A stretch of DNA of 64,000 nucleotides from Isoetes taiwanensis (Eukaryota; Streptophyta; Lycopodiopsida; Isoetales; Isoetaceae). Numbering within the stretch: position 1 is the stretch's first letter; each line of letters begins with the position of its first letter. The DNA lies in NCBI GenBank assembly GCA_021234155.1, contig JAJEKV010000042.1:2231257-2295256 (forward strand), read 5' to 3'. The notes under the pieces were generated by a model, which saw nothing but the letters and a program-made list of their open reading frames with translations, was not told the origin of the DNA and ran no database searches. Of the stretch, positions 53,040 to 54,266 are shown in pieces. Made by a program: the position numbers and the translations under genes.

Positions 53040-53414
53040 CTAGCGGGAATCTCCTCGGATTCTTCGCGCCAAATGTATATCTTTGGGCATAATGGTGACT
53101 CTTTTAGCATGAATGGCGCACAGGTTGGCATCGCTCAAAATCTCAATGAGGTAGGCTTCAACAGCTTCCTGAAGCGCAAGTAAAGCAAAAGCCTGAAACC
53201 TCATATTGGTCTTGAACTCTTGAGTAATTTCTCGAACCAGTCGCTGGAAGGGTAGCCGGCGTATCAAGGGCTCAGTAGTCTTCTGATACTTACGTATTTC
53301 GCGCAGGGCTACTGTGCCTGGTCGGAACCTGTGGGTTTTTCTCGGCTTGGCAGGTGGGTTGGGCAATGATAAGGTCTTGCCACCAGTCGAGAGGTGTTTT
53401 GCCCTTTGTACCAT
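53040..53414 (-). CDS. histone H3-like open frame (H3 part alone)
   Basis: From the ATG at 53414 the frame encodes 124 residues, close to the 135 of H3, and has MVQRAKHLSTGGK where H3 has MARTKQTARKSTGGK. In canonical H3 numbering it has F41 (as plant H3.1) but F87 and L90 (L90 as plant H3.3). C110, the acidic and basic residues of the core and the PKDIxLARRIRG C-terminus are kept. Loop 1 has no extra residue, unlike CENH3. Compared with H3 it has L-to-P in TEPLIRR and changes in the alpha-2 helix. If translation started here a nucleosome-competent variant is conceivable. No promoter was identified. Confidence 0.7.
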   Translation of the reverse strand: MVQRAKHLSTGGKTLSLPNPPAKPRKTHRFRPGTVALREIRKYQKTTEPLIRRLPFQRLVREITQEFKTNMRFQAFALLALQEAVEAYLIEILSDANLCAIHAKRVTIMPKDIHLARRIRGDSR

Positions 53415-53678
53415 CCGTTCCCGACGTTGCGCCGAGGTGGTCTTGCCGATCGCAGCATCCTTCTGCAGTCGGGTCTTGTAATGGACGCCTCCCCTTGTTG
53501 GTTTCGTAAGCTTCCTCTTCCTGTTACCCCATCTTTCATCTGTTTCATGAACAACATGTTGATCTCCCTCCTGAACAACATGTTGATCTGCGCTCCGCTG
53601 TGTTTGGGCAACTTCCTCTGCTCTACGGATACGCTCTCTCTCAGCATCCCGGGCCTCCCTGTCCTGGCGCACTTGAGT

Positions 53679-54266
53679 TCACCGTGCAATCTCTGCATGA
53701 TACCGGTCCGGGTGAGCTTGCATATCGGCTTCGATAAGGTCCATACGATCCTTTGTGATTTCGGATGGGAGATCATCGAAGATGAAGCTATGTAACTCTT
53801 CATTCCAATAGAAAGGGGGCAGATTATAGTGATCCAAATACATGAGTACGTGGCCCTTCCCGAGATAATAAAAGCGTACAGCTCTGTTCTCGGGGGTACC
53901 ACTAGCGATTTGTTGCAGGTCCTCTGTTCTCGCAAGGTCCATAACCCTCTGGGCTTCCGTCCGTGCAAGCTCTATGGGGTCTTCATCTGGGCCCGCCAAC
54001 GGGTAGAACTTAACAATGGCCCAAGCTTGGTCAGGCTGCTCTACTAAAGTATAGGCCTCGTTGGCCGCATTCAACTTCATAAGAAAGCGCTCATTGAAAT
54101 GAAAAATAGGATAGGGAATCCTACGGTTCGCTACGAAATGGATGACAAGAAGGTCCAAAACTGTGTCTACCATATCGCTCTCAGCCCCAAGATGATCTAC
54201 CAGCACACTGTAGAGCTGAAAAACATTCATGGTTTTTAGATCTACGGTGAGTTTGAAGCGTGACAT
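53679..54266 (-). CDS. unknown 195-codon N-terminal domain of the H3 chimera
   Basis: An open ATG-to-TGA frame. It contains hydrophobic helical segments (VFQLYSVLVDHLG, MVDTVLDLLVIHFVA), a middle WAIVKFYPLAGPDEDP, and a C-terminal FDDLPSEITKDRMDLIEAD that runs into a charged coiled coil beyond the stop. There is no CCHC knuckle or known Gag motif. It sits in the Gag position of the LTR element, so it may be a diverged capsid-type protein; this is inference. Confidence 0.5.
   Translation of the reverse strand: MSRFKLTVDLKTMNVFQLYSVLVDHLGAESDMVDTVLDLLVIHFVANRRIPYPIFHFNERFLMKLNAANEAYTLVEQPDQAWAIVKFYPLAGPDEDPIELARTEAQRVMDLARTEDLQQIASGTPENRAVRFYYLGKGHVLMYLDHYNLPPFYWNEELHSFIFDDLPSEITKDRMDLIEADMQAHPDRYHAEIAR

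Follow-up and report, generated by a model that had tools for sequence, protein, structure and literature searches.

Chromodomains are a well-known link between long terminal repeat (LTR) retrotransposons and chromatin, the element encoding a reader of histones, and core histones are encoded by viruses, as in the case of the bracovirus H4 and the histones of Marseilleviridae and Medusavirus. The window analysed here, a stretch of 64,000 nucleotides from the lycophyte Isoetes taiwanensis (contig JAJEKV010000042.1), holds part of an LTR retrotransposon whose first open reading frame (ORF), ORF1, joins a domain of 195 amino acids to a histone H3 core. Judged from its sequence, the element belongs to a large Ty3/gypsy chromovirus family that has retained a host-derived H3, and we regard the anatomy of the family and the selection acting on its H3 as hardly in doubt. 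Extra ORFs and acquired domains are known in gypsy elements, as the relevant passages of two papers describe (PMC9289625, PMC6431247), and the section of the former on a screen of 121 angiosperm genomes gives 15 atypical gypsy domains, with no histone among those it names.

The frame runs from 54266 to 53040 on the minus strand, to which all coordinates of the element in the window refer, and consists of 195 codons, a TGA, 212 sense codons and a TAG. Its carboxy-terminal portion (53043-53333) matches the Pfam Histone family (PF00125, 143.5 bits, E=4.9e-42) and H3 chains in the PDB, the best being 7ux9, 'Histone H3.3' (E=5.9e-47), and is 78.6% identical to the host H3 genes over 98 amino acids; an H3-type histone fold is thus supported by the Pfam match, the PDB chains and the alignment to canonical H3. 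The amino-terminal 195 amino acids (53682-54266, with the ATG at 54266), which we call the N-domain, gave no significant match in Pfam, PHROGs or the PDB sequences. After the in-frame TGA (53679-53681), where other copies are intact, comes a linker (53334-53678), charged and glutamine-rich and then basic, at whose end a remnant of the H3 tail is left, with STGGK at 53376-53390; the TAG at 53040-53042 closes the frame. Upstream stand a leader (54267-54962), the primer-binding site (PBS) TGGTATCAGAGC (54974 to 54963), a 12-mer which we take to match the 3′ end of the initiator-methionine tRNA, and, one base before it, a 5′ LTR of 1,552 bp (56527 to 54976; TGTGACG...CGTCACA), the ATG of the frame following 708 nt on from the PBS. 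Both the leader and the LTR are similar in DNA sequence to those of related loci. An earlier note on this DNA had pointed out the near-complete H3 core, the amino-terminal part of no known family, the rewritten and shortened tail, and the LTR and PBS on the same strand, all of which are borne out.

The junction between the N-domain and H3 is common to many copies. We searched the genome assembly to which the window belongs, of 1,658,258,908 bases in 1,110 sequences; PMC8566536 counts 204 scaffolds and 909 contigs for the Isoetes taiwanensis assembly, with a total of 1,658.30 Mb. The N-domain query gave 2,871 candidates, and all 150 that were scored, the window included, match at 63-100% identity. 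When the complete ORF1 of locus L015 was used as query, at least half of the N-domain and of the H3 core was found in 99 of 100 scored loci, among them the window and L015's own locus, and 16 of the 100 match as one stop-free piece up to residue 416 or 417, in frames of 411-459 amino acids. The two parts also recover each other. Among the 20 loci picked for long frames from 150 scored H3 matches (L009-L028), a choice that biases H3 conservation upward, all 20 carry the N-domain at 36-79% identity, and in 13 of them one open frame spans the N-domain and H3. A further 20 (L032-L051) were fetched by the N-domain alone, hand-picked at approximately regular intervals from about the upper 134 of its 150 rows with known loci skipped; H3 is present in 17 of these (partially in L036, L044 and L051), and none was seen within the stretch in L038, L040 and L048. 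The earlier note had allowed for a junction unique to this locus or for a separate processed pseudogene landing nearby, and both are excluded by the multi-copy junction.

The abundance of such sequences is also seen with the Pfam histone profile, which gave 8,705 candidates in the genome, 150 of them scored; counts of candidates should not be equated with those of copies. The first 15 scored rows match profile positions 2-122, and eight of them were fetched, all canonical H3 genes; for the remaining 135 the open frames measure about 108-494 amino acids. A plant H2A query against the same genome yielded only 106 candidates and 80 matches, and the excess is therefore one of H3 and not a property of histones at large, with the proviso that the two counts come from unlike queries, a profile and a single protein. 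No relatives were confirmed in viral contigs.

A complete element is represented by the insertion L013/L029, which has two LTRs of 1,684 and 1,757 bp (K2P distance 0.029 over 1,653 aligned sites) and the 5-bp target duplication CAATC flanking both ends. ORF1 (L013, 3002-4360) lies between the two LTRs, so that the H3 is, as the earlier note had supposed, part of an LTR retrotransposon. It is followed by a frame with Retrotrans_gag/Ty3_capsid, protease and reverse transcriptase (RT) domains (4626-7274) and by another with RNase H, integrase and a chromodomain (7278-9416), the latter at the carboxy-terminus of the integrase (Pfam Chromo, E=6.3e-08, residues 633-681) with similar sequence in L030 and L025. 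ORF1 and gag are usually separated by two more frames: ORF2 (about 460 amino acids) in 19 of the 20 ten-kb loci, L013 being without it, and ORF3 (about 150 amino acids) in 16 of 20; in L018, for example, they occupy 4635-6020 and 6215-6721. Neither gave a usable Pfam or PDB match, and a resemblance of the ORF2 carboxy-terminus to H2A, seen by eye, was rejected since hhalign gave it a probability of 0.2%, no better than shuffles. The identical PBS 12-mer precedes ORF1 in 15 of the 20 loci, and in 14 of those 15 a TGTGACG start is found about 1.55-1.9 kb before it. The order of the element is LTR, PBS, leader, ORF1, ORF2, ORF3, gag, protease, RT, RNase H, integrase, chromodomain, LTR.

Since the gag-pol set lies downstream of ORF1 in the relatives (gag-RT was seen in 17 of the 20 ten-kb loci), the frame is an extra gene ahead of an ordinary gag and not a substitute for it. 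The earlier note had placed the frame in the gag position, and here it has to be corrected. A gag identity of the N-domain is likewise unsupported, with no Pfam gag match (Retrotrans_gag/Ty3_capsid) among 16 members and an hhalign probability of 0.2% against the family's own gag. A GNAT acetyltransferase was also considered for the N-domain, the chain 2q7b being matched at E=0.64 with the single sequence and 0.047 with the profile; neither value is significant, Pfam gave no GNAT match among the 16 members, and we retain it as a weak lead. The AlphaFold model of the N-domain from a single sequence was too poor to be of use (mean pLDDT 41.6).

The window itself contains the decayed 5′ part of one copy. 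No second LTR of the H3-carrying element was found anywhere in the 64 kb, and tblastn of the window showed no ORF2, ORF3 or gag-pol of the family, its sole match being the RT of a different element at 24% identity. The DNA similarity to relatives stops at about 53046, beyond which there is AT-rich DNA and a tandem array of a 144-bp unit (50557-52690; units of 280-434 bp were also called) directly downstream of the truncated element.

Both halves of ORF1 bear the mark of purifying selection. Median pairwise Nei-Gojobori dN/dS was 0.108 for the N-domain (41 copies; 5-95% range 0.067-0.187) and 0.047 for the H3 core (37 copies, one of the 38 aligned being omitted as less than half aligned; 0.019-0.310), with saturated dS in 406 of 820 and 201 of 666 pairs, respectively, so that the ratios rest on the closer pairs. 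The earlier note had looked for values below 1 on either side of the junction and for copies without the stop, and both were found. The window copy compared with the others gave 0.097 and 0.030 for the two parts. Similar values were obtained for ORF2 (0.111, 19 copies), ORF3 (0.109, 15 copies), gag-RT (0.151, 13 copies) and RNase H-integrase (0.072, 3 copies). Stops within the aligned part occur in 9 of 41 N-domain and 3 of 38 H3 copies. Neutral simulations of a frame of ORF1 length, 500 for each divergence, left it open 6 times at 0.1 substitutions per site and never at 0.15. Distances in the N-domain correlate with those in H3 (r 0.48, with none of 2,000 permutations as high), as expected if both parts travel together.

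In regards to its origin, the H3 derives from a host-type H3 gene and has been retained in ORF1 under purifying selection. Synonymous differences between the retro-H3 and host H3 have reached saturation (median proportion 0.91), at a nonsynonymous proportion of 0.12, which points to an old capture that has been constrained since. In the nucleotide tree the two host H3 genes are split from the 36 retro-H3 copies with a support of 0.995, and the retro copies other than L028 group together with 0.82; with two host genes only, the tree fits a single capture and is not proof of it.

At the protein level, 72 of the 96 core positions show the host residue in 90% or more of 36 copies (two of the 38 aligned were omitted from this tally). 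C110, H113, K115, R116, T118, K122, D123, L126 and R129, which we take to be H3-H3′ and DNA contacts, are invariant in all 21 untrimmed frames. The near-fixed changes in the 36 copies are L60P (29), K64R (33), S86A (35), S87F (34), G102E (35), E105S (33) and T107A (36). Position 134, where the 36-copy tally is biased by local alignment ends, was counted in the untrimmed frames and is F in 19 of 21, the exceptions being L028 (R) and the window (S). The canonical tail (ARTKQTARKS...ARKSAP) is gone except for the STGGK-like relic. Of the 32 copies in which the residue before this relic, at the position of K9, is readable, 31 have P and one, the window, has L; the spacing from K14 to H39 is 14 residues in L015 versus 24 in host H3, with ARKSAP absent from L015, so that neither the K9 nor the K27 context remains. 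Centromeric H3 (CENH3) is characterised by a diverged core with a longer loop 1, which is not the case here, as canonical H3 can be aligned with the core across 96 positions with no gap.

An RT query was used to look at close relatives. It gave 30,773 candidates, of which 150, at 96-100% identity, were scored and 10 of these chosen; two were judged by coordinates, six were fetched with 3 kb upstream and two were left out. In the two judged by coordinates, H3 lies 4.6 kb upstream. L054, L055 and L057 have H3, ORF2 and ORF3, with a stop inside H3 in L054 and a frameshift in L055; these three make up a more remote subfamily, in which the N-domain end differs and the H3 core is closer to the host form. 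Their N-domain ends are 34-38% and their H3 cores 80-84% identical to L015, which makes H3 the better-kept half of ORF1. L056 retains H3 and ORF2 alongside a degenerate N-domain, and L052 has remains of ORF2 and ORF3 with a nested LTR, ORF1 falling outside the fetched stretch. Ordinary relatives coexist with the H3 carriers, and in L010 a carrier and a non-carrier stand side by side.

How such a protein could serve the element is best explained, in our opinion, by an action on chromatin. The H3 core of ORF1 would pair with host H4 and be handled like an H3-H4 unit, this unit would enter or dock on nucleosomes, and the N-domain and linker would connect the nucleosome contact to the element's own proteins; with a tail that has lost the K9 and K27 contexts, nucleosomes containing ORF1 could not carry the usual silencing marks. 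H4 pairing and chromatin contact are suggested because what is kept is a histone core with the contact residues named above, and not mere basic charge. That ORF1 acts on chromatin through H4 pairing seems to us a little better than an even prospect, and about the same can be said of the explanation taken as a whole, a chromovirus ORF1 with a selected H3 that acts in this way. Tethering as the main use of ORF1 is rather doubtful. The present data do not separate tethering from anti-silencing, and ORF1 might serve either or both. The suggestion of the earlier note, that the H3 could let the element bind nucleosomes or bias its integration into chromatin, is thus a plausible one. The chromodomain of the element, read by eye at what we take to be the positions of the HP1 aromatic cage, is missing two of the three cage residues, so that methyl-lysine may not be recognised by it in the ordinary way, and we would guess that an H3-based route to chromatin acts as a stand-in. 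ORF2 and ORF3 are under constraint similar to that of ORF1, with no relatives found in Pfam or the PDB. A bolder version, somewhat unlikely in our estimation, is that the self-encoded, tail-stripped H3 builds or invades nucleosomes and makes the element's own DNA or its insertion sites unmarkable for silencing, ORF2 and ORF3 being its partners.

A number of observations weigh against a chromatin role of ORF1. The AlphaFold model of the window's H3 part by itself, from a single sequence, was poor (mean pLDDT 54.7). The fixed changes at 86, 87, 102, 105 and 107 could alter pairing or chaperone use. In the set selected by the N-domain, H3 dN/dS was 0.062 with a wide 5-95% spread (0.022-0.524), and 56 of 120 H3 pairs were saturated. 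Finally, L053 has an LTR and PBS about 2.6 kb ahead of the RT query, with no space for ORF1-3, and on the sense strand of L010 (6512-8763) a second LTR and leader, 95.6% identical to the first, leads straight into gag. Because these close relatives are without ORF1-3, the element type can do without them. The alternative raised in the earlier note, that related elements have an ordinary gag here and the H3 is a separate pseudogene, thus survives in its first half for some close relatives and is excluded in its second.

The loss of the K9 and K27 contexts could also be the whole point. An H3 lacking them, laid on the element's DNA or more widely, would block heterochromatin marks with no tethering or integration involved, as the P or L at the K9 position, the shortened K14-H39 interval without an ARKSAP context in L015 and the preserved core would suggest; however, a fusion partner that merely replaced the tail would look identical, and the large conserved N-domain would be superfluous, and we hold this explanation to be unlikely. 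It is quite improbable that the protein works outside chromatin, with its H3 part coating RNA or cDNA in the particle or soaking up host H3-H4 chaperones: the linker and core are basic and the element's gag comes separately after ORF1, but the near-perfect keeping of specific core residues exceeds what a basic coat would need. LTR elements are well known to capture genes, and the window copy has a stop, as a passively captured gene or a nearby processed pseudogene without function might have. Such an origin is scarcely credible given the same junction in 99 of 100 loci, the low dN/dS, frames open at divergences where neutral frames are lost, and the position of ORF1 between both LTRs of one insertion.

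The window contains other features. A DIRS-like retroelement (42626-47808, plus strand) has a zinc-knuckle frame, an RT frame and a tyrosine-recombinase match in this order, the last being weak (Phage_integrase, E=0.0044, below the cut-off). P-type Ca2+-ATPase-like pieces and a PPR-like stretch, perhaps pseudogene fragments, were seen by eye at 48900-50400 (plus strand), and a weak zf-RVT match (58780-59360, plus strand; E=0.009, below the cut-off) before a poly-A run probably marks the end of a LINE.

Elements of this kind are already known; the carried H3 gene, its fusion and its long retention do not seem to be. A literature search limited to open-licence papers, in which absence is weak evidence, found no described LTR retrotransposon with a histone and no match to an exact phrase on transposon-encoded histones, and the word 'histone' is absent from the main text of the Isoetes genome papers in a word search. 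Here the element carries the histone as well as its reader, and a transposon-encoded core histone under selection would give mobile elements a novel means of acting on host chromatin. It would also offer a natural H3 without the K9 and K27 contexts, useful for asking what role the tail has in silencing. The ORF1 copies may pass for host H3 genes in annotation.

Compared with the viral histones, the likeness is that of a selfish element encoding a core histone, although those are DNA viruses and this is an LTR retrotransposon. Compared with canonical plant H3, the core is similar in its identity (78.6% in the window) and in the 72 of 96 host-like positions, and differs by the fused N-domain, the short tail without the K9 and K27 contexts and the near-fixed changes at 60, 64, 86, 87, 102, 105, 107 and 134. 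The element shares its LTRs, PBS, domain order and 5-bp duplication with plant Ty3/gypsy chromoviruses, those of lycophytes included, as depicted in sections of PMC3350952 and PMC9289625; unlike them, it places an additional gene between the leader and gag, the H3-bearing ORF1, which is usually accompanied there by ORF2 and ORF3. As in the orchid 2-ODD/AlkB gypsy elements, in the account given by part of PMC9289625, a host-derived domain is retained as an extra ORF; there it is an RNA demethylase in angiosperms, whereas here it is a core histone joined to an unknown domain in a lycophyte.
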